Shown here piece after piece: positions 3,783 through 21,974 of a stretch of DNA of 33,178 nt. The stretch is from an uncultured archaeon. Lineage in GTDB: Archaea; EX4484-52; LFW-46. Every line of letters begins with the position of its first letter. The stretch's first letter is position 1. The notes below the pieces were generated by a model. That model ran no database searches. It was not told the DNA's origin and was given only the letters and a program-made list of their open reading frames with translations. The position numbers were made by a program, and so were the translations under genes. Location of the stretch: positions 1-33,178 of the forward strand of contig CABMCT010000012.1 in assembly GCA_902384675.1 (NCBI GenBank). The letters run 5' to 3'.

Positions 3783-5411
3783 TTACGAACTACTCGCCCT
3801 CAAAAATTCAAGGAAAAGCGGCGCCGGCTTCTCCAGTCTCGACTTGAATTCAGGATGCGCTTGTGTCGCAACAAAGAATTTGTGCTTTGGCAGTTCGATA
3901 AACTCGACTAGTCTGCCGTTCTCGGAAGTCCCTGAAAATACAAGCCCGTTTTTCTTCAGGCAATCGTGATAATCAGGATTTACTTCATAGCGATGCCTGT
4001 GTCTTTCAGAAACTTTTGATTCGCCGTAAATCTTTTCTATGCGCGACCCTTTCAAAATATCCGCTGCGAACGCCCCCAAACGTGGTGTTCCTCCCATGTC
4101 AGTGATATTCGCAAGGCTTGGCAAAATCTTAATCACCGGCTCTTTTGCCTTTGAATCAATCTCTGTCGAATTCGCGCCATTTAGTCCGCATACATTTCTT
4201 GCAAACTCTATGACTGCCAGTTGCAAACCATAACATAATCCAAGAAACGGAATATTATTCTCCCGCGCGTATCTTATCACTTCCATCTTCCCTTCTGTTC
4301 CGCGAGCGCCCCAGCCTCCGGGCACAAGGATACCATTAACATCCTTCAATACATCGGATACGCTTTTCTTTCCCGCTTCAATTTCAGTGGTTTCAATCCA
4401 TGACAATTTCACAGAAATGCCCAGATTGGCCCCTGCATGCTTTAGCGCATCGATAATGATTGCATAGGCATCATGCAGTTCTGTGTATTTCCCGCAGATT
4501 GCGATCTTGACTTCTTTTTTCGGGGACTTTATTTTGTCCACAAGCCCCCGCCAGTTTTTCATATCCTGCTTAGCTTTTGTCGAAAGCCTCTCATTTATCA
4601 GGCTGAGCAGGCCCTCTTCCTCAAAAATTATAGGCACTTCGTAAATCGTTGCAGTGTCCGGGTCGCTTATGACTTCTTTTTTCTCGACATTGCAGAAAAG
4701 CGCAATCCTCTCCTTTGATTTCTCGCTGAGCTTTTGGGCAGACCTGCCGATAATCACATCAGGCTGTATTCCTATTCCCTGCAGAATCTTGACGCTCTGT
4801 TGCGTTGGCTTTGTTTTCTGCTCCCCTCCGTTTACTTCGGGAATTAAAGAAAGATGGATATAGAGGATGTTGTCGCGCCCTACATCGACTCTCAATTGCC
4901 TTGCAGCCTCAAGGAAAAGCATGTTTTCGATGTCCCCTACAGTCCCGCCGATTTCAATAAGAACGACATCTGCCTTTTCCTCTTCGGCAATTTTTTTGAA
5001 TCTCTTCTTTATCTCATCAGTAACATGAGGAATCATCTGTACTGTTTTTCCCAAAAAGTCTCCCTTGCGCTCCCTGTCGATAACCGATTTGAATATCTTG
5101 CCTGAAGTGAGATTCCATGCGAACTTGGTATTTATGTTCATAAAGCGCTCGTAGTGGCCGAAATCCATGTCGACTTCCCCGCCGTCCTCAAGAACAAATA
5201 CTTCGCCGTGCTCGTACGGGTTGATTGTGCCGGGGTCGACATTCAGATACCCGTCGCATTTTACAGGCACGACCTTCAAATTAGTGCTAAGAAGCCTTCC
5301 GATGCTTGCAGAAACAATACCCTTACCGAGACCCGATAGAACACCGCCGGTGATGACAATCCACTTGGTGGTCGTGTGCATAAGAAAATCATCTCGTTTC
5401 GCTTCGCTCAT
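3783..5411 (-). CDS. pyrG: CTP synthase
   Basis: KWIVITGGVLSGLGKGIVSASIGRLL; GATase motif FLGLCYGLQLAVIEFARN; start is MSEAKRDDFL at 5411 or MHTTTKW at 5381. Confidence 0.97.
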   Translation of the reverse strand: MSEAKRDDFLMHTTTKWIVITGGVLSGLGKGIVSASIGRLLSTNLKVVPVKCDGYLNVDPGTINPYEHGEVFVLEDGGEVDMDFGHYERFMNINTKFAWNLTSGKIFKSVIDRERKGDFLGKTVQMIPHVTDEIKKRFKKIAEEEKADVVLIEIGGTVGDIENMLFLEAARQLRVDVGRDNILYIHLSLIPEVNGGEQKTKPTQQSVKILQGIGIQPDVIIGRSAQKLSEKSKERIALFCNVEKKEVISDPDTATIYEVPIIFEEEGLLSLINERLSTKAKQDMKNWRGLVDKIKSPKKEVKIAICGKYTELHDAYAIIIDALKHAGANLGISVKLSWIETTEIEAGKKSVSDVLKDVNGILVPGGWGARGTEGKMEVIRYARENNIPFLGLCYGLQLAVIEFARNVCGLNGANSTEIDSKAKEPVIKILPSLANITDMGGTPRLGAFAADILKGSRIEKIYGESKVSERHRHRYEVNPDYHDCLKKNGLVFSGTSENGRLVEFIELPKHKFFVATQAHPEFKSRLEKPAPLFLEFLRASSS

Positions 5412-5469
5412 TTTGAGCCATTGAACATTTCTTTGGGCTCGAAAGCTTGAAAAGCCTCTGCTTTTCATG
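5411..5469 (-). repeat. Double-hairpin leader element, pyrG copy
   Basis: Stem TTTTGAGCC (5411-5419)/GGCTCgAAA (5436-5444), loop ATTGAACATTTCTTTG; then palindrome TGAAAAGC-ctct-GCTTTTCA (5448-5467). Confidence 0.7.
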
Positions 5470-5609
5470 ACTCGAAGCTTTTTTATTGCATTGCATACTA
5501 TATCGCAATAAAAAATATGTGATGAAAGATTAATATATCTATGTTGAGCCGATAACCCGTTGCAAGAAAGCATATATGCTTTTGCGGATAATGATTATCG
5601 GGAATGATT

Positions 5610-11358: not shown

Positions 11359-11712
11359 TTATTTTTCTTCAAAAACATAACCCACTGGAGTTACACTCAT
11401 GATTTCCTTCATTCCTTTTATTTGTGTATTTATTTCATCAATCTTCGAATAGTTTGTATCTTCTGACTCTTTGAGCCAAAGGAGGAAACAAGTCATATCC
11501 GGCAATTTTTCTAATTCCTTTAATCCTTCTAATGTTACAGAGCCTTTTTTTAGTACGAGCTGATTTTCATATATTTGACGGCCATCATTACGGGTATCTA
11601 TAATATCTATTATGTTTCCGTACATTTTTTTAATTTGTTTAAGTGTCTCAGAGCTTCCTTTAGTCAATGATATGATTTCTATTCCATCGTATCTGTTATT
11701 AGCCCCACCCAT
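11359..11712 (-). CDS. Hypothetical protein inserted between rps12 and rps7
   Basis: 117-aa ORF on operon strand, no recognised family. Confidence 0.55.
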   Translation of the reverse strand: MGGANNRYDGIEIISLTKGSSETLKQIKKMYGNIIDIIDTRNDGRQIYENQLVLKKGSVTLEGLKELEKLPDMTCFLLWLKESEDTNYSKIDEINTQIKGMKEIMSVTPVGYVFEEK

Positions 11713-11728
11713 AGATAATCATCTAATA

Positions 11729-12157
11729 CTACTTCACTGCTCTCTTCTTCTTTCCCCTTACAAGCTCAATCAGCGAAATGCCGTTGACCTGTATCACTTT
11801 CCATTTTACCGAAGGAAGCGAACCCATTGGCCCTGCATTTGAGCCGCCGATGTGCTCGATTAAGACTTCGTCGTGTTCCTGGATATTATTTATTGCGCCG
11901 GAAAGCGGTGCAAAAGCAGTCACCTGCTTGCCGTTCTTGATAAGCTGGACCCTGACGCATTTAAGCATTCCGGAGTGCGGCTGCTTTGCCTCAAGCTGGC
12001 GCTTGTCAAGCACAATGCCGCGCGCCTGGTGATACCCCTCAAGAGGGTCGCTCTTCTCCTTCAAGTGCAATTTCTTGTTCTTGAAATACCAGTCGTGCCA
12101 CTGCTTGTCCTTTTTGTTCTTTTTCAAATCTCTTCCTGAAAATAAACCTCGAGGCAT
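11729..12157 (-). CDS. rps12: 30S ribosomal protein S12
   Basis: [65 protein letters not shown]. Confidence 0.97.
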
Positions 12158-12191
12158 TTTTGACCATTCTCCATTTTACTTGGGTCAAAAA
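12157..12191 (-). repeat. Leader hairpin overlapping rps12 start codon
   Basis: TTTTTGACC-ATTCTCCATTTTACTTG-GGTCAAAAA, 9-bp perfect stem, 17-nt loop; ATG at stem end. Confidence 0.75.
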
Positions 12192-12198
12192 GCCGAAA

Positions 12199-12229
12199 GT
12201 GATGCGATTCATGGTTTATAAGGCATCAC
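12199..12229 (-). repeat. Second rps12 leader hairpin with TATA-like loop
   Basis: GTGATGC-gattcatggtttataag-GCATCAC, 7-bp stem, 17-nt loop; 28 of 29 nt block shared with 21003-21031. Confidence 0.7.
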
Positions 12230-12236
12230 GAACGGA

Positions 12237-12289
12237 TTTCCGACCATTTATATTATGCAATGGGTTGGAAAGCTTGATACATAGTATCA
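12237..12289 (-). repeat. Third rps12 leader double hairpin
   Basis: TTTCCGACC-(17 nt)-GGTTGGAAA (12237-12271) then TGATAC-ata-GTATCA (12275-12289). Confidence 0.65.
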
Positions 12290-12292
12290 TGA

Positions 12293-12325
12293 TTTTCAAC
12301 CTTTATTTTATGCACTGGGTTAAAA
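12293..12325 (-). repeat. Fourth rps12 leader hairpin
   Basis: TTTTCAACC (12293-12301), 16-nt loop tttattttatgcactg, GGTTAAAA (12318-12325). Confidence 0.6.
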
Positions 12326-12342
12326 CCGCATTGCATTATTAA

Positions 12343-12762
12343 TTATAACAACCTGACTTCATCGACCCCAAAAACCCGCTTCAGAAGCGCTGATGCGTTC
12401 TTTATGGTCTTTCCTTCGCGGCCGATTGCAAGCGATTTGTCTTTCTGCTCGACTGAAATCATCACTGTTTTTTTTCCCTGTTTCTCCGAAAGCTCGAATG
12501 TCTTCAGAGGAACCGGGAGTACGTTTTCCGTGAACTCTTTTATTTCAGGCGAATATTTAAAAACCTTTATATTGTGCCCGAACCGCGATTTTATCTCGTT
12601 TATCCGCTTTCCCTGCGGCCCAATCACATCGCTTAGATTTCTGCATTCGACGACAAAATTGAGCTCGTCGTCGGATTTAAAATAATCAACAACAGTTGTT
12701 TTTGCCATTTTTTCAAAAAGCGCCATCGTCTGGAGGTCTTCCTGAGATATGGTTATTTTCAT
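12343..12762 (-). CDS. nusA: NusA-like transcription termination/antitermination factor (KH domains)
   Basis: VVECRNLSDVIGPQGKRINEIKSRFGHNIKVFKYS...DKSLAIGREGKTIKNASALLKRVFGVDEVRLL. Confidence 0.93.
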   Translation of the reverse strand: MKITISQEDLQTMALFEKMAKTTVVDYFKSDDELNFVVECRNLSDVIGPQGKRINEIKSRFGHNIKVFKYSPEIKEFTENVLPVPLKTFELSEKQGKKTVMISVEQKDKSLAIGREGKTIKNASALLKRVFGVDEVRLL

Positions 12763-12791
12763 GCGCGCATCAACACTATTTCTTTATACTC

Positions 12792-13094
12792 TTACTTCGC
12801 TTCGCTCGTTCGAGTCTTTTGAGGACTCCCTTCCCTCAAAATTCCGATAACCGCGATTTTGAACGGCTTGACACAAAGCGCACCCAAATCTGCGCTGTTG
12901 CCTTCGAATTGTTTTACCGCAATTTCCGAAAGCTTCCCGTAGTGCTCTATATCAGACTTTATGTTGTCCGGGCAGTTGGAAGCGATAATAACCGAATGCA
13001 ATTCCCCTGCCTTTAATGCTTTTAGCGTTGACTCTGTACCTATAAGCACTTTCTTTGTCTCTACTGCCTTTTTTATCTCTTTTTCAAGCGTCAT
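12792..13094 (-). CDS. rpl30e: 50S ribosomal protein L30e
   Basis: VLIGTESTLKALKAGELHSVIIASNCPDNIKSDIEHY..; position between rpoA2 and nusA. Confidence 0.92.
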   Translation of the reverse strand: MTLEKEIKKAVETKKVLIGTESTLKALKAGELHSVIIASNCPDNIKSDIEHYGKLSEIAVKQFEGNSADLGALCVKPFKIAVIGILREGSPQKTRTSEAK

Positions 13095-13131
13095 GATAAT
13101 CACGTTCTCATTTTATTCATTTAATTTCTTT

Positions 13132-14247
13132 TTATTTCTTGCCGTCAGCCTCATCCTCCTTTACCGCCAATTTCACAATCCCGGTTCCAATCGGCGCAAG
13201 GTTTCCGACAATTATGTTTTCGATAACACTTTCAAGCGGGTCAATTTCGCCTGCAACAGCAGCATAAGTGAGGTGCTTGACTGTCTCCTCGAAGTTCGCT
13301 CTTGAAAGCACCGATGCCTTTCTTCCTGCAAGACCGTACCGGCCTATTGCTGAAATCGAAGCAGTGTTGGTCATGACATCCGCGACAAGAAGCAGGTGCC
13401 TTATATCCGTATCTACACCCTGTTCTCTCATTGTGTCTATGGTCTCTTTTACAATCGCATTTCGCGCAGCTTCTATTCCAAGAACGTCTGCGACTTCGAA
13501 AATATTGTTTGAAGTTGTCCTTATTGTGTTGACGCCCTTAATCTTGAGCACCCTTCGCAGGCTTGAGCCAAGGGTTCTTATTACCCAGTCGTTTTTGACT
13601 TTCTCGATAATTATCTGGCTGATGCCTTTTATTCCTTTGATGTAAATTGTTCGTGCCTTGATTCTTGTTGCCTGCAGTTCCCTTACATCGAAGTCTTTCT
13701 TTTTAAGCTCGATATAAATTTTGTTCTGCTCGCCTGTAATGTTTGCGGAGCGCAGGTTTTTCTTAAGGATGTTCATGATTTCTTCCACGTTTGTCTCCGA
13801 TGCGCTCATCTGCTCGCGGTCAAGCACTATCTCTGCCCGCATGTTAATCATGTCAAGAGAGTCTTCCGAAATCAGTTGCTTCAGCTTCGTCTCCCGGATT
13901 TTTGCTGCGATTTCCCTTGCTTTTTCAAGGGTGTTGTTTTCCGCATCAAGATAAATTTCCATCGTTGGGGTTTTTGGCATTTTTCTTGCATCGAAAATCT
14001 CGATAAGCCTTGGAAGGCCTTTTGTTGTGACGAGCTGCGTTCTGCCTTCTGCGTGGTATGAACGAAGCGTCGTTTGTGTTGCAGGCTCTGAAATGGACTG
14101 CGCTGCCACGACTCCTATCGCTTCGCCGACTTCGAATTTCATTGATTCGTATTTCTTTTTTATCGCTTCCTGCTCTTTTGCCGAAAGCCCGACTATTGCA
14201 TCCGCGTACTTTGGCGGGAAAAAATTGGAATTTTGTTTTTCTGCCAT
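13132..14247 (-). CDS. rpoA2: DNA-directed RNA polymerase subunit A''
   Basis: EAIGVVAAQSISEPATQTTLRSYHAEGRTQLVTTKGLPRLIEIFDARK; start ATG 14247. Confidence 0.97.
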   Translation of the reverse strand: MAEKQNSNFFPPKYADAIVGLSAKEQEAIKKKYESMKFEVGEAIGVVAAQSISEPATQTTLRSYHAEGRTQLVTTKGLPRLIEIFDARKMPKTPTMEIYLDAENNTLEKAREIAAKIRETKLKQLISEDSLDMINMRAEIVLDREQMSASETNVEEIMNILKKNLRSANITGEQNKIYIELKKKDFDVRELQATRIKARTIYIKGIKGISQIIIEKVKNDWVIRTLGSSLRRVLKIKGVNTIRTTSNNIFEVADVLGIEAARNAIVKETIDTMREQGVDTDIRHLLLVADVMTNTASISAIGRYGLAGRKASVLSRANFEETVKHLTYAAVAGEIDPLESVIENIIVGNLAPIGTGIVKLAVKEDEADGKK

Positions 14248-14257
14248 AATTATCAAC

Positions 14258-14818
14258 TCATTTCGTATTGCTCTTAAGTATTACTCCTTTACGCTCCCAG
14301 TTTAGCTCGGGATGTAATCTTTTTATCTCGTCTAACGTCATTCCTGAGTTACCTGTGAGCTCCCGGATTCCTTTCGGAGGTTCTATACTATAACTTTCAT
14401 AAACGCGTTCAATTTCCTTTAAAAGGCGTTGTGCCCCGAAAGTGTGTTCGCCTTTATTTATCATTTTTTTGAGATGGTTTGTTTTTTCTTCCAAACAATA
14501 TATCATAGTTTTTTCAACATCAATGAATTCATCCAATTTATCCAAAGGTTTTGCCGTAATGAGTGAGTATGAGTCCTTTGCATTTTTTAACAAACCGGCA
14601 GCGGCACCGAGGCGCCAATCTTGGTCAAAAAAATAATACAACGCGGAATTTATATCCGCTTGATTGTTTGGTGCTTCGATGACCTTGGAGAGCTGCAAAA
14701 TATATTTCCGTAACTGCTCTTGAGCTCTTTGAATTCCGCCATATGCCAATTGAGTTGTTATATCACTGCTTTTAAAAGGATGCTTTTCATCGCAACCGGT
14801 TCCACACGAACATCCCAT
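14258..14818 (-). CDS. Hypothetical protein inserted between rpoA1 and rpoA2
   Basis: 186-aa ORF with N-terminal Cys cluster MGCSCGTGCDEKH; no recognised family. Confidence 0.6.
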   Translation of the reverse strand: MGCSCGTGCDEKHPFKSSDITTQLAYGGIQRAQEQLRKYILQLSKVIEAPNNQADINSALYYFFDQDWRLGAAAGLLKNAKDSYSLITAKPLDKLDEFIDVEKTMIYCLEEKTNHLKKMINKGEHTFGAQRLLKEIERVYESYSIEPPKGIRELTGNSGMTLDEIKRLHPELNWERKGVILKSNTK

Positions 14819-14846
14819 ATCGATATTACCTCGCGATATATCTTTA

Positions 14847-17375
14847 TTATTCAGTTTTTAACTTTCTATCCAAAGTTCCGAAATCGCTCTTTGCCGGGTC
14901 AATTCCGTCTTCTCCTGGGACGAACTGGATTATTGTTCCTTCCGAGTCCTTGACAGTCCAGTCGTTGTTGACTTTCAAATCCTGCAAAGCATTAATCAGC
15001 CTTCTTTGCATGTATCCCGAGACTTTTGTCTTAAGCGCCACGTCCATCAGGCCTTCTCTTCCTTTCATGACCTCAAAGAAGAATTCTGCCGGCGTAAGTC
15101 CCTGTATGAACGATGACCTTACAAAGCCGTGTGCGTCAGGGCCTAAAACATCTCGCGGGAAGTGGGAAGTCGTCCTGTTCTTGTATCCCCTGAATATCCT
15201 TCTTCCTCCAATCATTTCCTGGCCGATGAGCGCTGCCATGTACGCAAGGTTCTGTATGTTTCCTCTCGCCCCTGTTTTTGCCATTATTAAAGCGTCTGTG
15301 GGCTCTGCGTTCTCGCGCACAACCTTCTGAACTTCGTTTGTTATTTTCCAGACTTCCTCAAGTATCAAATCCTCAAGCGTCTGCTCTGCGGTTCTTCCCG
15401 GGAAGCATTCCATTTTCCCTTTCCTGTACTGCTCGATATGAGCCTCCATTGCCGCAAATTGCCTGTCGATAATATTGTTAATATCGCGCTTGGTTTTTGC
15501 CGGAAGGTCTATGTCCTGCACCGATATGCTAAAACCCTTGCGCATCATCACTTCTGAAATCAGCCTTGTGACCTGGTCCAGGAACAGCCTTGCCCGCGCG
15601 TGTCCGAACTGGGCATCAACTGCATCCAGGACATTGCCTTTAAACGAAGCTATTCCCTTGCTGTCGATAACGCCATGTTTTAATATTCCGTTCTCAATTA
15701 CGACCTCGCCATTGTGTTTGCAGTTGCCCTCGCATTCCTCGCATCCGACGGTTCCCTTGTATCTTGCGTTAAGCCCTTTTGGAAGCACCATTGAAAAGAT
15801 TTCTTTTCCTGTGTATTCTTTCTTGTTTTGCGAAAGCAGCTCTTCTGCAATCTCGTTTTCAAGCGCCAGGGAGTTGGCAAGCATCTGCACTACATCCTTT
15901 TTGCTGAAACTTGTTCCTTTTCTTGTAAGCAGGTACGCGCCTGAAATATAATCCTGGTCGCATCCAAGCACAGGCCCGCCGAATCTTGGCGAGCGCATAT
16001 TTTTTTCGACAAGCATTAATTCTTCTGCTTCTGCTCTTGCTTCTGCGGTCTGCGGAAAGTGCAGGTTCATCTCGTCCCCGTCGAAGTCCGCGTTGTAGGG
16101 CTTGCAGACACACAGATTGACCCTGAAAGTCTTCCCGTTCATGACCCTTACATGGTGTGCCATGACAGACATCCTGTGAAGCGATGGCTGCCTGTTGAAG
16201 AGTACTACATCCCCGTCCATCATGTGCCTTTCCACGATGCACCCGGGAATCAGCTCTTCTGCAAGCGTTGCGCTGTTGTCTTTGAGTATCTTCTTTCGCA
16301 TGCCTTCTGGCCTTATTACATAATTGGCGCCGGGGTGGACATTCGGCCCGTTTTTGACGAGTTCGCGCATGAATTCAAGATTATGCTTTGTGACCTTAAT
16401 CGGAACAGTGAGCTCTTTTGCAATGACTTCCGGGACTCCCACGTCGTTTACGCTGATATTCGGATCAGGCGACACTACTGTTCTTGCAGAGAAATTTACT
16501 CTTTTTCCCGTGAGGTTGTGCCTGAACCTGCCGTCCTTTGTTTTCAGTCTCTGCGAAAGAGTTTTTAGCGCCCTTCCGGAGCGGTGCCTTGCCGGCGGAA
16601 CACCGGATAATTCGTTGTTGAAGAATGTCGAAACATGGTATTGCAAAAGCTCCCAGAGGTCTTCAAGAATGAAATCAGGGGCTCCTATTTCAAGGTTGTC
16701 TGCAAGCCTCTTGTTTATCCTGATTATGTCCACTATCTTGTGCGTAAGGTCGTCCTCGCTTCGGTCTCCTGTCTCAAGAGTGATTGAAGGCCTTGTTGTT
16801 ATAGGCGGAACCAAAAGAAGCGTCAATATCAGCCATTCCGGCCTGCCCCCGAGGAATTTCATTGCTGCAAGGTCGCCATCCTTTATTTTCTCGAACTGCT
16901 CGCGGATTTCAACCGGCGTCAGTGCGTGTTTTCCCCGGACGAATGTCGACGGCTTGTCAAGCCTTATTTTTTCCTGCGCCTTCCCGCATTTCGGGCATTT
17001 GGCAGCAGGCTTGAAAGCCTTTAAGTCATCGAATGTCTTGATGTTTTTCAGGCGGTCCTTGTCAACAAGAAGCCCGCCGCATTCAAAGCATGTGTAGGTA
17101 AGAAGCGATTTTATCTGCTTTATATAAAGAATGTTGATAACCGGCCTTGAGAGCTCGATGTAGCCGAAGTGCCCTGTGCATTCCCCAAGCTTTCCGCCGC
17201 ATGTCCTGCATCGCATTCCGGGGTCTATTACGCCGAGTTTCGGATCCATGACGCCACCTTCCACAGGATAAGCGTCTGCATCATAGACGTCCGAGACGTT
17301 AACGTTCATTACTGCGATTTTTTTCACCATTGCCGGTGAAATCAATTTGAACTGAAGTTCTTTAACAGTAGCCAT
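14847..17375 (-). CDS. rpoA1: DNA-directed RNA polymerase subunit A'
   Basis: Catalytic YNADFDGDEMNLHFPQ, zinc-binding CRTCGGKLGECTGHFG; start ATG 17375. Confidence 0.98.
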   Translation of the reverse strand: MATVKELQFKLISPAMVKKIAVMNVNVSDVYDADAYPVEGGVMDPKLGVIDPGMRCRTCGGKLGECTGHFGYIELSRPVINILYIKQIKSLLTYTCFECGGLLVDKDRLKNIKTFDDLKAFKPAAKCPKCGKAQEKIRLDKPSTFVRGKHALTPVEIREQFEKIKDGDLAAMKFLGGRPEWLILTLLLVPPITTRPSITLETGDRSEDDLTHKIVDIIRINKRLADNLEIGAPDFILEDLWELLQYHVSTFFNNELSGVPPARHRSGRALKTLSQRLKTKDGRFRHNLTGKRVNFSARTVVSPDPNISVNDVGVPEVIAKELTVPIKVTKHNLEFMRELVKNGPNVHPGANYVIRPEGMRKKILKDNSATLAEELIPGCIVERHMMDGDVVLFNRQPSLHRMSVMAHHVRVMNGKTFRVNLCVCKPYNADFDGDEMNLHFPQTAEARAEAEELMLVEKNMRSPRFGGPVLGCDQDYISGAYLLTRKGTSFSKKDVVQMLANSLALENEIAEELLSQNKKEYTGKEIFSMVLPKGLNARYKGTVGCEECEGNCKHNGEVVIENGILKHGVIDSKGIASFKGNVLDAVDAQFGHARARLFLDQVTRLISEVMMRKGFSISVQDIDLPAKTKRDINNIIDRQFAAMEAHIEQYRKGKMECFPGRTAEQTLEDLILEEVWKITNEVQKVVRENAEPTDALIMAKTGARGNIQNLAYMAALIGQEMIGGRRIFRGYKNRTTSHFPRDVLGPDAHGFVRSSFIQGLTPAEFFFEVMKGREGLMDVALKTKVSGYMQRRLINALQDLKVNNDWTVKDSEGTIIQFVPGEDGIDPAKSDFGTLDRKLKTE

Positions 17376-17387
17376 AAAAATCACTTA

Positions 17388-19184
17388 CTATTCCTCCTCT
17401 TCCATCACAACTTGCGGATATATCATCATGCTCTTCATTTCGTCAAGCAGGAGCTTGAAAGCATAGGACATATCCACGTTCTTTATCTTTGAGCCTTTGC
17501 AAAGAGGACAATAAGTCTTGTTCTTTATCTTATCCACTACCGCGGTCACTCCGCATGTTTCGCAGAACGGAATCGTTGTCTTGTCCGAGCTGAAGCGCTC
17601 CCTCAATGTTATTGCTGCCCCGTGCGCGACAAGGGTGTCTTTCTCCATTTCTCCGAATCTTAAACCGCCTTCCTTGCTTCGCCCCTCTGTCGGCTGTTTT
17701 GTAAGCAATGCCACAGGGCCCTTTGAGCGGGCGTGCATTTTCTGCGACACAAGGTGGTAAAGCCTCTGGTAGTAAATCATTCCGATAAGTATGCTTGCCT
17801 CTACTTTTTCTCCTGTTATGCCGTTGTAGACTGTTTCTTTTCCGTCATCCCTGAACCCTGCTGCCTTAAGGAGCTTGACTATGTATTCCTCGTTTCCCTT
17901 GAACGCGGTTCCGTTGATTTTCTCTCCTGCCAGCGCTCCTGCCTTTCCGCCGATTATTTCAAGCAGGTGCCCGATTGTCATTCTTGACGGTATTGCGTGA
18001 GCATTAAAGATTATATCCGGAGTTATCCCGTCTGCTGTAAACGGCATGTCTTCCTCGGGAACAATTATTCCAAGAACGCCTTTTTGCCCGTGCCTTGAAG
18101 CGAATTTGTCGCCCACTTCAGGGATTTTAAGCTCTCTTACAGTGACCTTGATTAAGCGGTTTCCTTCCTTGGATTCGGTCATTATGACTTTGTCCACAAC
18201 CCCGCCTTCTCCTGCATTCACGACAAGCGAATTGTCTCTTCGGTTTTTTATCCCGAGGCGCGTTTCTTTTACAACTCCAAGGAACCTTAACGGCGATGTC
18301 TTTCCGACAACAACGTCATTTCCCTCTACATTTGTTTCAGGAGACACTATTCCGTCAGAGTCAAGCTTGTTGTACTCTTTTTCGGACTTGAATCCTCTTA
18401 CGCTCGGGTCCGGGAATCCGATTTCGTCTTCCTGGCCTCCCCAGTACCTGTTTGCCTCGGTTACGTATGTTCTGAATGAATATGACCTTCCAAGGCCGCG
18501 CTCGATTGATGCCTTATTGATAACTATTGCGTCTTCGATATTGTAGCCGTAGAAAGGCATTACTGCAATTATGATGTTCTGTCCTGCAGGATGGATATCA
18601 ACGCCTGCTGCATGGATTGTCTCGGACTGCACAAGCGGCTCCTGCGGATAGACAAGCATCTGGGCTGTTGTGTCGTCTCGCAGGTTGTGGTTGTGAAGAT
18701 ACATCCCGACTGCCTGAGTCACCATTCTTGAGCCGTAGTTTGACCTGTCTCCTCTGTTCTTTTCCGGGTACACAAGAAGCGATGCGCCGACACCCACAAT
18801 CATCATCGGGTCTATTTCTATATGAGTATGCTTTTTTGTGAGCTCTTCCGGCTTGAATGCGACAAGCGCCATTTCCTCTTCTTCGGCATCAAGATATTCC
18901 ACGACGCCTTTCTCGACGAGATTTTGCCAAGTGAGCTTTCCTTCCCTTAACTGCGCAATCATCGCCTCTGTCAGTTTTGATGCGCCGTTCTCGACAACAA
19001 TAAGAGGCCTTCTTACCCTGCCGCCGTCGGTGTTTATCTGGACCTCGTCCTTCTCCTCGTAGTAGCTGCTGTTCATTGTCCAGGGAAGCACGCCCTGCCT
19101 TCTCTTTGCGATAAGCGATTTGACAAGCTCGCGCCCTTCCTTTGTTGTTCCGACATATTCGCCGTTAAGATATATTTCGCTCAT
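17388..19184 (-). CDS. rpoB1: DNA-directed RNA polymerase subunit B'
   Basis: MPFYGYNIEDAIVINKASIERGLGRS; KFASRHGQKGVLGIIVPEEDMPFT; QPTEGRSKEGGLRFGEMEKDTL. Confidence 0.98.
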   Translation of the reverse strand: MSEIYLNGEYVGTTKEGRELVKSLIAKRRQGVLPWTMNSSYYEEKDEVQINTDGGRVRRPLIVVENGASKLTEAMIAQLREGKLTWQNLVEKGVVEYLDAEEEEMALVAFKPEELTKKHTHIEIDPMMIVGVGASLLVYPEKNRGDRSNYGSRMVTQAVGMYLHNHNLRDDTTAQMLVYPQEPLVQSETIHAAGVDIHPAGQNIIIAVMPFYGYNIEDAIVINKASIERGLGRSYSFRTYVTEANRYWGGQEDEIGFPDPSVRGFKSEKEYNKLDSDGIVSPETNVEGNDVVVGKTSPLRFLGVVKETRLGIKNRRDNSLVVNAGEGGVVDKVIMTESKEGNRLIKVTVRELKIPEVGDKFASRHGQKGVLGIIVPEEDMPFTADGITPDIIFNAHAIPSRMTIGHLLEIIGGKAGALAGEKINGTAFKGNEEYIVKLLKAAGFRDDGKETVYNGITGEKVEASILIGMIYYQRLYHLVSQKMHARSKGPVALLTKQPTEGRSKEGGLRFGEMEKDTLVAHGAAITLRERFSSDKTTIPFCETCGVTAVVDKIKNKTYCPLCKGSKIKNVDMSYAFKLLLDEMKSMMIYPQVVMEEEE

Positions 19185-19246
19185 TTTTAATCATTCTCCA
19201 TTTTCCTTGGATTAAAAAGCTTGAAAATCGTTGAACGATTTTCAAG
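19184..19246 (-). repeat. Double-hairpin leader element at rpoB1 start
   Basis: TTTTTAATC (19184-19192), 17-nt loop ATTCTCCATTTTCCTTG, GATTAAAAA (19210-19218), then 13-bp palindrome CTTGAAAATCGTT-g-AACGATTTTCAAG. Confidence 0.8.
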
Positions 19247-19274
19247 ATAAATATCATTCTCCAATTTATTTCCC

Positions 19275-19304
19275 GCATCAGCAGCGCATTTTATGCTCTG
19301 ATGC
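19275..19304 (-). repeat. Hairpin in rpoB2-rpoB1 intergenic region
   Basis: GCATCAG-cagcgcattttatgct-CTGATGC, 7-bp stem, 16-nt loop containing attttatgc shared with other copies. Confidence 0.6.
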
Positions 19305-19307
19305 TAT

Positions 19308-19351
19308 CGATTATCGTTCGGTCTTCACCGAATAATAATCGCTATTATTCG
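19308..19351. promoter_or_regulatory. Mutually exclusive overlapping hairpins
   Basis: CGATTATcgTTCGGT-cttc-ACCGAAtaATAATCG (19308-19341) overlaps CGAATAATA-atcgc-TATTATTCG (19329-19351). Confidence 0.5.
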
Positions 19352-19378
19352 ACATTCTACCCGCGTAAAACACTCGGC

Positions 19379-20881
19379 CTATTCGACCTTTGCCCCAAGC
19401 GCCTTGACTGTTGTAAGTATTTTCAGGTCGTCTGCATCTGTGCCCGGCTGCGTCAGTTTTGCCCCCATTGCAAGGAAGTTCCTGAGACCTATGTTCTGCC
19501 CTTCAGGGGTTCTTATGCAGCAAAGCCTTCCCATATGGGTAGCATGCAGTTCTCTTGCCTCGAAGTGCTCCTGCGTCGATGAAAGCGCAGACACAACGCT
19601 TCTGAGATGCTCTGTTGTCCTTATGAAATTGCTTCTCTCAAGCCTCTGCGACACGCCGGTTTTGCCGGTTATCCAGTTTCCTGTTGCCATGGAGCGCATA
19701 ATCTGTTTTGTAAGCACATCAGACACAACAACGCCCTGCAGCTTCAGGAACTTTCTGCCGCGCTTCATCATTTTCTGATAATTATACTGCAATCTTGCGA
19801 CAAGGCCCCATCTTCCAAGGATTATCGAGCGCAGCAGGTCCTCGAACAGGTCCCCGACGCCTTTAAGCCTCTTGTTTGCATAGTGGTCGATGTCATCAAC
19901 AGACAGCTTTCCCTGCTTTGCGTGTATGAGCTTTCGCACGACTATGCCAAGGAATTTCGCCTTCTTTATTCGGTCTTCCACTTTCTGGCCTATGTGCCCG
20001 AGCAGGTAAGTATCAAGAAGCTGCAGTACTCTTGCCTCGCGGTGCTCTTTCTGCATTACTTTCATGCGCCTTCCGATGTAATCGATTGCCTCGTCGCGGG
20101 TGCTTGCCTCGACTTCGTAAATATTCGTGTAGACTTCCTCAAGCTCGCTCTGGTCCTCTGTGACTATATTGTCTATTATTTCCTTGTCTGTATCCATTCC
20201 AAGAGCCTTCATGAGTGCCACAAGAGGAATCGGGGTGTTGACGATGTTCGCGAATTTTGCGACAATCACGCCTGTTGCCTTTCTTTCAAAAACATGCCTC
20301 TGGACATATCCGCCGCGCTCGCTGTTGATTCTTGCAAAAAATTCCTCGCCGTCTTTCTGCAGTATCAGGCGGTTTGGCGCAACTTCTTCAAGAAGCACAA
20401 CAACTCTCTCGGTGCCGTTTATTATGAAATATCCTCCCGGGTCTTTCGGGTCCTCTCCTGCCAGGATTAGCTCCTCCTTGTTCATTGTGGAGAGAGGGCA
20501 GAGAACCGATTTGACCATGATTGGTATTTCCCCGATTTCAACGACCTCGGTTTCCTGCGCCTTGCCTTCGAATATCGGCGTCATTTCAACCAGAAGCGGG
20601 GCGGAGTATGTAAGGTTTCTTAAGCGCGCCTCCTGCGGAAGTATCGACCTTGTCGAGCCGTTTGCCTCGCGGATTATCGGTTTTCCGAGAGTTACAGAGC
20701 CGAATTTAATATCAAGAAATTCCCCGCTGGACAGCTCGACGGTTACTTTGCCGATTTCGTTAATTGTGCGTTGGAGCCGCCTGATTACGAAATCATTGAA
20801 CGAATCTATCTGGTGGGATACGAACTCGTTTCTGTCCGCCTTTTCATTTAAGAATGTCTGAAGTATTGTCTGTTCTTGCAT
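19379..20881 (-). CDS. rpoB2: DNA-directed RNA polymerase subunit B''
   Basis: FIINGTERVVVLLEEVAPNRLIL; GVSQRLERSNFIRTTEHLRSVVSAL; HMGRLCCIRTPEGQNIGLRNFLA; ATG 20881. Confidence 0.98.
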   Translation of the reverse strand: MQEQTILQTFLNEKADRNEFVSHQIDSFNDFVIRRLQRTINEIGKVTVELSSGEFLDIKFGSVTLGKPIIREANGSTRSILPQEARLRNLTYSAPLLVEMTPIFEGKAQETEVVEIGEIPIMVKSVLCPLSTMNKEELILAGEDPKDPGGYFIINGTERVVVLLEEVAPNRLILQKDGEEFFARINSERGGYVQRHVFERKATGVIVAKFANIVNTPIPLVALMKALGMDTDKEIIDNIVTEDQSELEEVYTNIYEVEASTRDEAIDYIGRRMKVMQKEHREARVLQLLDTYLLGHIGQKVEDRIKKAKFLGIVVRKLIHAKQGKLSVDDIDHYANKRLKGVGDLFEDLLRSIILGRWGLVARLQYNYQKMMKRGRKFLKLQGVVVSDVLTKQIMRSMATGNWITGKTGVSQRLERSNFIRTTEHLRSVVSALSSTQEHFEARELHATHMGRLCCIRTPEGQNIGLRNFLAMGAKLTQPGTDADDLKILTTVKALGAKVE

Positions 20882-20927
20882 TTTCAATCATCTCTACTAA
20901 CTATTCGCATTTTGCATTGGATTGAAA
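20882..20927 (-). repeat. Leader hairpin at rpoB2 start
   Basis: TTTCAATC (20882-20889)/GATTGAAA (20920-20927); 30-nt loop whose last 17 nt, ATTCGCATTTTGCATTG, match the family loop. Confidence 0.65.
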
Positions 20928-21002
20928 TCATCTCGTTTGCTGTTTGCAAACTCGAAGCTTTTGGGAACCCTTTGTCCCAAAAAGCCAAGAGCGATGCTGT
21001 CA

Positions 21003-21031
21003 ATGGTTTATAAGGCATCGCGAACGGATTT
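21003..21031 (-). repeat. 29-nt conserved block shared with the rps12 leader, TATA-like
   Basis: ATGGTTTATAAGGCATCGCGAACGGATTT versus ATGGTTTATAAGGCATCACGAACGGATTT at 12211-12239. Confidence 0.75.
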
Positions 21032-21124
21032 TTCGCCATTTTGAATCATTCGTAATTTTTGTTGGATTCGAAAGCTTGGAAATTCGCAAGAATTTCCAAG
21101 ATTATTTTATGCTGTGGGCGAAAA
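21030..21124 (-). repeat. Nested double-hairpin element: inner copy inside an older copy
   Basis: Outer stem TTTTCGCC (21030-21037)/GGCGAAAA (21117-21124); inner TTTTGAATC-(17 nt)-GATTCgAAA plus perfect palindrome CTTGGAAATTC-gcaa-GAATTTCCAAG (21075-21100). Confidence 0.7.
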
Positions 21125-21148
21125 CAGCTTGACACAAAGTTGTTTCGC

Positions 21149-21472
21149 TTACTCACTTTCGCTCTCTTCCTCAAAAGCAGCAACGTTGCTCTCGATGACG
21201 AGCCGATAATAATATGATGTGCCGGCAGTTGCGCTTCTTCGCGTGATTTTTATGATGTCGCCAAGCTTGGGATTAAGATATTGTATTGCCGGGTCATTCG
21301 AGGATATTTTGGGAAGATTCTCTACCTTGATTTTCAGGTTTGCAAGCAGTGCTAGCGCCTCCTCTTCTGAAAGAATTTCGTGCTTAGGCACAAGAAAATG
21401 GTTTATTTCAGTTTTCGGCTCCTTTTTTACTTCTTCAGCGCTGGATTTTTTAGCCCCTTTTTTTTCAGTCAA
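21149..21472 (-). CDS. rpoH: DNA-directed RNA polymerase subunit H
   Basis: HFLVPKHEILSEEEALALLANLKIKVENLPKISSNDPAIQYLNPKLGDIIKITRRSATAGTSYYYRLV. Confidence 0.95.
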   Translation of the reverse strand: MTEKKGAKKSSAEEVKKEPKTEINHFLVPKHEILSEEEALALLANLKIKVENLPKISSNDPAIQYLNPKLGDIIKITRRSATAGTSYYYRLVIESNVAAFEEESESE

Positions 21473-21512
21473 GCAATCTACCCCAATTGATTTATATTTC
21501 CGTTACTATGAG

Positions 21513-21657
21513 CGAGCCCGAGGGGATTTGAACCCCCGACACCCGGGTTTCTTCAGTTTCGAAATTCGTCTGGTTAAAAGCCTCACCCTTCCAAAAGGTC
21601 GCTATGTACCTTTCGGCATTAAGAGCCCGGTGCTCTACCAGACTGAGCTACGGGCCC
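21513..21657 (-). tRNA. tRNA-Lys(CUU) with a 71-nt intron at the canonical 37/38 position (intron 21549-21619)
   Basis: Acceptor GGGCCCG/CGGGCTC (one G-U), D-arm GCTC/GAGC, anticodon stem CCGGG/CCCGG with loop CTCTTAA, T-arm GGGGG-TTCAAAT-CCCCT. Confidence 0.9.
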
Positions 21658-21695
21658 AATATGATGTTGATTATGCTCAGCAGGTAACGACGTTA

Positions 21696-21863
21696 ATTTG
21701 AACCATTTTCAATCATACACAACGGCTTTGTTTACAACCCCACGCCAACCGCTTTGGGTTGGAAAGCTTGGAAATCTGCAATTTCAATGAGATTGAAAAG
21801 CTTGCCGAAGGCATGATTCATAAGTGATTGGGTTCAAATGCTTGGAAATCTTTTAGATTTCCA
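21696..21863 (-). repeat. Nested hairpin cluster upstream of tRNA-Lys
   Basis: Outer ATTTGAACC (21696-21704)/GGTTCAAAT (21831-21839); inner TTTTCAATC (21706-21714)/GATTGAAAA (21791-21799); CCAACC-gctttg-GGTTGG (21745-21762); palindrome TGGAAATC-tttta-GATTTCCA (21843-21863). Confidence 0.7.
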
Positions 21864-21974
21864 TGAATTATTAAATGAATAAATTGATAGATGCCCTGTA
21901 TCTTTGAACTGGTTGATTAATAAATCATTAAAAAAAGAAAAACCAAAGGACATAGGTTACACCAACTAATAGTA

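Follow-up and report, generated by a model that had tools for sequence, protein, structure and literature searches.

The 33,178-nucleotide stretch analysed here (the window; contig CABMCT010000012.1, assembly GCA_902384675.1) comes from the metagenome-assembled genome (MAG) of an uncultured archaeon of the lineage EX4484-52, LFW-46. It carries repeated copies of a two-hairpin DNA unit, about 50-100 nt long, which reads 5′-TC-(hairpin B)-GC-TTTT-(hairpin A)-AAAA-3′ in gene sense. These units very probably form a non-autonomous family of very small mobile DNA elements, essentially confined to one DPANN genus, rather than a co-regulating RNA leader, and the description that suits the family best is that of an archaeal equivalent of double-hairpin or palindromic mobile elements. 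Mobility is shown by empty sites, near-identical copies at several loci and nesting. An initial annotation had quoted five minus-strand hairpins (at rps12, rpoB1, rpoB2, a "rpoB2 leader" and pyrG), all present as written, and had suggested that they could act as a translation switch by which RNA polymerase, S12 and CTP synthase are co-regulated, or as a terminator-plus-start module; the observation was right, while the reading as a co-regulating switch is mostly wrong.

Empty sites and nested copies

The genome of the window (G000, 1.2 Mb) was compared with the other genome of the same genus (G001), whose RpoB2 is 92% identical. Counts draw on retrieved stretches of about 390 kb of G000 and about 640 kb of G001, to which the ortholog comparison is limited, and on pattern and model searches of the whole genomes. 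At rpoB1, G001 reads TGATATTTATGAGCGA, i.e., an empty site TGATATTTA^TGAGCGA (^ marks the insertion point), where the window has TGATATTTA, a 64-nt unit, and then TGAGCGA. Orthologs exist in G001 for 14 start-adjacent copies; 11 of these copies are missing there while the start codon keeps its position, and one of the 11 (an epimerase gene) aligns weakly at its start. The reciprocal case is also found: the site TTTTA^TGGATATC is filled in G001 and empty in G000. Elements are present in both species, with differing stems, in the leaders of S12, L3 and S5 (rps12, rpl3, rps5).

On contig C29 of G000, a unit lies at an A^TGG within the loop of another copy (TTTTTATCCAAGTAAAA, unit, TGGAGAATGATAAAAAATG). 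Near-identical composites occur at four more loci (five in all), where one more unit separates that hairpin from the ATG, so that arrays apparently grow at the start codon. Insertion takes place before T, most often between A and TG, and the target duplication is never longer than one base; because the 5′ flank of the unit can be A, G, T or C, no target-site duplication (TSD) of at least two bases fits all cases.

Architecture of the units and their copies in the window

Comparison of the surroundings of all copies shows that the leader hairpin (A) is one end of a longer repeat and that the units are strung in arrays and nested. Hairpin A has about nine stem pairs with T-runs outside, and its loop is either about 17 nt long (CAA...AAT) or short. 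Hairpin B exists in a short form, the palindrome TCATG...CAAGC and its relatives, and in a longer form, B2, made of TCCG-TTC, a 7-bp stem, a loop starting with CTTATNAACCAT, the returning stem and TCT-CGGC. The variable palindrome C(A/T)TG-...-CAAGC, noted initially upstream of several copies, is a regular second hairpin (TC...GC) of the same unit. B and A hairpins are reshuffled among units, and no terminal inverted repeat is common to all copies. Stem sequences differ between copies, hence the encoded peptides differ too, and no peptide is conserved across copies. The units were also considered as coding sequence, which was rejected: B2 frames differ, stops fall at differing sites, and read-through is confined to insertions in open reading frames (ORFs). 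Separately, the point CCA^TT of the B2 loop is a hot spot, at which a reversed TTTTGAGG hairpin interrupts 6 of the 24 B2 loops listed, about a quarter (G000 contigs C62, C56, C19 and C75).

The copies in the window are the following (SD, Shine-Dalgarno):

12157-12191, minus strand: terminal A hairpin of rps12, TTTTTGACC-caagtaaaatggagaat-GGTCAAAAA; the loop has SD-like GGAG and the hairpin's final A begins the S12 ATG
12192-12236, minus strand: B2 hairpin of rps12, TCCG-TTC-GTGATGC-loop-GCATCAC-TTT-CGGC; covariance-model match, E 1.4e-20
12237-12325, minus strand: older part of the rps12 array, with A at 12293-12325, B1 (TCATGATACtatGTATCAAGC) at 12272-12292 and A at 12237-12271
19184-19247, minus strand: rpoB1 unit, 64 nt, splitting the start codon as A^TG, empty site in G001; B is TCTTGAAAATCG-ttcaa-CGATTTTCAAGC, and A (19184-19218, minus strand) is TTTTTAATC-caaggaaaatggagaat-GATTAAAAA
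20882-20927, minus strand: terminal A hairpin of rpoB2 with a longer loop (caatgcaaaatgcgaatagttagtagagat), adjoining the rpoB2 ATG at 20881; site empty in G001
20928-20958, plus strand: B hairpin of opposite orientation in the rpoB2 array, TCATCTCGTTTGC...GCAAACTCGAAGC
20959-20983, minus strand: A-type hairpin in the rpoB2 array, TTTTTGGGA...TTCCCAAAA
20984-21028, minus strand: B2 hairpin in the rpoB2 array
21039-21101, minus strand: unit inserted at an A^TGG of an older A hairpin's loop; the arms of that older hairpin lie at 21102-21124 and 21025-21038
5411-5478, minus strand: pyrG-leader unit, with B and its inner palindrome at 5445-5478 and A (TTTCGAGCC...GGCTCAAAA) at 5411-5444
12795-12841, strand given as ".": reverse-orientation unit at the 3′ end of an L30e-like gene, forming an in-frame C-terminal tail
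21703-21866, minus strand: degenerate A and B hairpins flanking a tRNA gene at its 5′ side; absent in G001

The hairpins at 12192-12236 and 12157-12191 make up one complete unit. The unit at 21039-21101, whose older host hairpin reads TTTTCGCC...TGGCGAAAA, has further hairpins after it; a near-identical composite of this nested unit lies on G000 contig C62. Pfam identifies S12 (PF00164) and the pyrG product, CTP synthase, this confirmation covering window proteins only, and other genes are read from their translations. In the case of pyrG, the ATG adjoining the unit may not be the true start, the likelier one being at MHTTTKWIV, 10 codons further in.

Copy number and distribution

The loop motif CCAA-N{2,6}-AAAT-N{2,6}-AATGR has four matches in the window against 0.31 expected, a number reached by no shuffle, and CCAANNNAAATGNNGAATG, with at most two mismatches, matches 73 times in the whole of G000 compared with 7 times for a reversed control pattern. 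A strict-unit scan of six G000 contigs, picked irrespective of start-adjacency, yields 34 units in 288 kb versus 0.2 in Markov-2 controls. The same scan finds 12 units in G001 (168 kb scanned) and a single one in named relatives (445 kb scanned); the closest of these relatives are Nanohalarchaeota MAGs with an RpoB2 identity of about 66%. A covariance model, the check that had been proposed for the family, was built from 13 B2+A units and searched in G000, G001 and 32 further genomes of the order; its matches are confined almost wholly to the genus (125 in G000, 66 in G001, 1 in G027 and 0 in the 31 other genomes). The initial annotation did not recognise a named RNA family, and Rfam at the gathering threshold returns only the tRNA in the window.

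Lone unit-like copies occur in another genus of the order (L206, G027:C109:4304-4361; L106, G033:C12), where transfer or bin contamination is possible. No hairpins comparable to the rpoB leader are found upstream of rpoB in 68 named relatives, and the loop pattern stays at about control level in 59 more distant archaeal genomes. At the sensitivity used, viral contigs give 43 matches to the 17-base loop pattern, of which 0 have complementary arms, and 0 matches to the B2 pattern, and plasmids give no copies.

Units also lie within genes. A 16-codon unit is read in frame in a 644-amino-acid (aa) ORF, read as NEMF/RqcH-like, and a 43-codon composite is in frame in an Mtq2/HemK-type methyltransferase gene and absent in G001. 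In the window, the in-frame end of the L30e-like gene falls inside a unit, and at this position G001 carries three units in tandem. Other units immediately adjoin tRNA genes on their 3′ side (A^TGAGCGAGCC; G001 contig C19, and G000 contig C31 at about 12755-12854), so that the A^TG is not necessarily a start codon.

Insertion at translation starts

Scatter of copies inside and outside genes with no leader bias had been named as a finding that would tell against a leader family; the copies are indeed scattered, yet with a clear bias towards start codons. Among the 18 units of the six contigs that have TG as their flank, 14 abut an ORF start; were insertions distributed across start codons and intergenic ATGs, the expected share would be 0.25 (p about 3e-6). 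The initial statement that the leaders end at start codons thus holds as an enrichment, although the copy at 21039-21101 is not at a gene start. An SD-like GGAG, GAGG, GGTG or GGGG is present in the A loop of all 14 start-adjacent units and of 5 of the 24 others; the Fisher p of 2.4e-6 is optimistic because the copies are related. Such motifs precede 28% of ordinary ATG-start ORFs and occur at 12% of random positions. The 3′ stem had been proposed to cover both the start codon and an SD-like TGAT. At S12, RpoB1 and RpoB2 the start codon's A is indeed part of this stem, but the SD-like sequence is not the TGAT of the stem: it is the GGAG, GAGG or GGTG of the loop. The 16S rRNA tail GGATCACCTCC is present in G001 and was not found in G000, an incomplete MAG.

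The genes adjoined at their start are mixed. Their translations read as S12, S5, S14, S19, S28, L3, L30, EF-2, Rpo7, Spt4, proteasome alpha, SerRS, nucleoside diphosphate kinase and an antiporter, among others. A unit inserted at A^TG would keep the start codon and bring its own ribosome-binding motif, so that translation would be restored after the old leader is displaced and such insertions would survive. Each insertion would also recreate AAAA^TG for the next one. One can go further and imagine an element actively directed to translation starts and carrying its own ribosome-binding site, i.e., a portable initiation module that would take the place of a gene's leader on landing exactly between A and TG, and whose hairpins are recognised by shape rather than sequence and kept complementary by arm copying at the DNA level; this extended version remains speculative, and we hold it to be rather doubtful. 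In any event, the family offers a natural case of mobile DNA at the starts of essential genes (S12, S5, S14, S19, S28, L3, EF-2, RpoB and others) that are not evidently lost, their survival apparently being due to the ribosome-binding motif supplied by the unit.

Possible routes of mobilisation

Several points weigh against a family of mobile elements as outlined above. Only two genomes of the genus are at hand, both incomplete MAGs. No reverse transcriptase (RVT_1) is found in G000 or G001, and no units are visible around the Y1 transposase genes of either genome. The enrichment at start codons may partly reflect survival rather than targeting, and selection for function would explain the shared rps12, rpl3 and rps5 elements equally well. 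Finally, the copying of one hairpin arm from the other, discussed below, is a step that we infer rather than observe directly.

The best explanation that names a specific enzyme class is a single-strand element of the miniature inverted-repeat transposable element (MITE) or HUH type, whose hairpins would be transposon ends on which a Y1 transposase or Helitron-like nuclease acts in trans to mobilise the element. The lack of a TSD of at least 2 nt, the strand-defined ends (TC...AAAA), the insertion before T, the 3′ hairpin, the head-to-tail arrays and the nesting are all in its favour, as is the presence of Y1 transposases in both genomes (one gene in G000, three in G001). However, the G000 gene belongs to an ordinary IS605-type TnpA/TnpB pair without visible units at its flanks, and was not retained as the mobiliser. 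Moreover, the stems vary far more than known HUH recognition hairpins, and the 3′ end is AAAA, not the CTRR of Helitrons. Such an origin is conceivable, and we put it forward tentatively.

Recombination sites of the attC type, recognised by structure and exchanged hairpin by hairpin by a tyrosine recombinase, would account for conserved ends with freely variable stems and for the reshuffling of B and A hairpins between units. At one orthologous start codon (contig C29 of G000; L277 in G001), hairpin B has opposite orientations in the two species, as such exchange could produce. Tyrosine recombinases are present (Phage_integrase search), one of them in the window. The latter is an XerA-like gene conserved in both genomes, no gene cassettes lie between units, and no attC R-box signature was noticed, which makes this route improbable.

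Covariation and the level at which pairing is maintained

A selected cis-acting RNA leader, acting as a translation switch common to RNA polymerase, S12 and other genes, would draw support from the stems, which were said to covary around a conserved loop. They do, and the loop motif exceeds chance as reported above. Among 26 copies picked by the loop only (at most one mismatch), stem positions 4, 5, 6 and 8 pair in 21, 24, 23 and 24 copies, against 16.4, 10.3, 11.2 and 13.1 when arms are shuffled, and the arms of B2 hairpins likewise pair far above arms shuffled between copies. An alignment of 13 units, chosen in part for their pairing, has 99.6% of its cells paired and both-sided changes at 12 of 19 pairs. 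The rps12 leaders of G000 and G001 differ by seven paired changes and, by eye, 0 one-sided ones.

This variation is almost purely Watson-Crick: mismatches in about 510 cells comprise 5 G-U and 11 A-C. Selection for an RNA fold would predict an excess of G-U over A-C; its absence suggests, as the simplest reading, that complementarity is kept at the DNA level. Folding gives a divided picture, since a 9-bp hairpin A by itself does not fold better than shuffles (z -0.04 to -1.0), whereas B+A leaders do (z about -2.7 to -3.1). The A of the AUG within the 3′ stem, the SD-like motif in the loop and the elements shared by both species at rps12, rpl3 and rps5 also speak for a leader. Against it, presence at orthologous leaders is not conserved, the element being absent from 11 of 14 leaders in the close relative, including rpoB1 and rpoB2; the gene set is mixed; and copies lie by tRNA genes, in frame in ORFs and inside one another. 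Altogether, a co-regulating switch is not supported by these data and is considered very improbable.

For a mobile family, one stem arm could be copied from the other at the DNA level, by template switching or hairpin mismatch repair, and would then stay complementary despite drift. Template switching has been described as creating and keeping hairpins with compensatory changes (PMC8794818), and in the coding palindromes of Nematomorpha mitochondrial DNA paired substitutions keep the arms complementary (PMC6649704). Such hairpins likewise acquire paired substitutions without requiring RNA selection, but are resident, while the archaeal ones are part of mobile elements. The target site as the template for the arms was also considered; the L30e case agrees with this idea, but rpoB2, rpoB1 and the C31/C41 site do not, and it was dropped. 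The family thus provides a clear system for how hairpin arms change together, and a warning: perfect-looking RNA covariation in leaders can stem from mobile palindromes, a trap for covariance-based RNA discovery in metagenomes.

Chance palindromes or an assembly artefact in an AT-rich genome can be set aside, even though both genomes are MAGs, given 34 units versus 0.2 expected, the same family in an independent MAG, and single-copy orthologs with precise breakpoints.

Relation to known mobile hairpins

Nested copies of double-hairpin elements (DHEs) were reportedly described by Paquin and colleagues in 2000. DHEs of Allomyces and other fungal mitochondrial DNA are two-hairpin, very small, dispersed and potentially mobile elements whose presence or absence differs between close species (PMC10085805, PMC2800124, PMC7218506). 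The archaeal units, which nest as well, resemble them in being two adjacent hairpins, very small, dispersed, mobile and variably present. They differ in residing in an archaeal chromosome rather than a mitochondrion, in their A/T-rich outer stems and fixed TC...GC-TTTT...AAAA frame, in inserting before T with a bias to the A^TG of start codons, and in the SD-like motif of the loop.

Rickettsia palindromic elements (RPEs) are dispersed too, some in frame in protein-coding genes (PMC10969869); they measure about 100-150 bp, encode a conserved peptide and lose arm identity over time (PMC6649704). The archaeal units also insert in frame (two ORFs and the L30e tail), but without a conserved peptide, with arms that stay complementary as sequences change, and with a preference for start codons.

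MITEs, IS200/IS605-derived palindromes and REP/BIME repeats share with the units their short length, non-autonomous nature, high copy number, end hairpins and mostly extragenic location, whereas the units have no conserved terminal inverted repeat, no TSD of at least 2 nt and no conserved stem sequences. No parent transposon with the same ends was found in searches that covered Y1_Tnp, RVT_1 and Phage_integrase only. Helitrons have a 5′-TC end, insert at A^T, carry a hairpin near their 3′ CTRR end and form head-to-tail arrays. The archaeal units similarly start with TC, insert mostly at A^T (other 5′ flanks occur), and have a 3′ hairpin and arrays, but they end in AAAA and are about 60 nt long, and no Rep-helicase was found, no search aimed at one having been made. 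In the open-access literature searched, we found no description of the A^TG start-codon bias, of the SD-like loop motif in start-adjacent copies, or of stems that change freely yet remain strictly Watson-Crick.

Additional observations in the window

A tRNA gene of 145 nt (21513-21657, minus strand), which contains a long intron, was found by Rfam and missed by ARAGORN. Between rps12 and the next gene of its operon lies a 117-aa ORF (11359-11712, minus strand) that has no Pfam match and is absent in G001. A 186-aa ORF (14258-14818, minus strand) between two rpoA genes likewise has no Pfam match and is absent in G001, where the empty site, CTGAA^TGAGTTGATAATTATGG, is once more an A^TG; it looks as though a gene cassette had entered at a site like those of the units.

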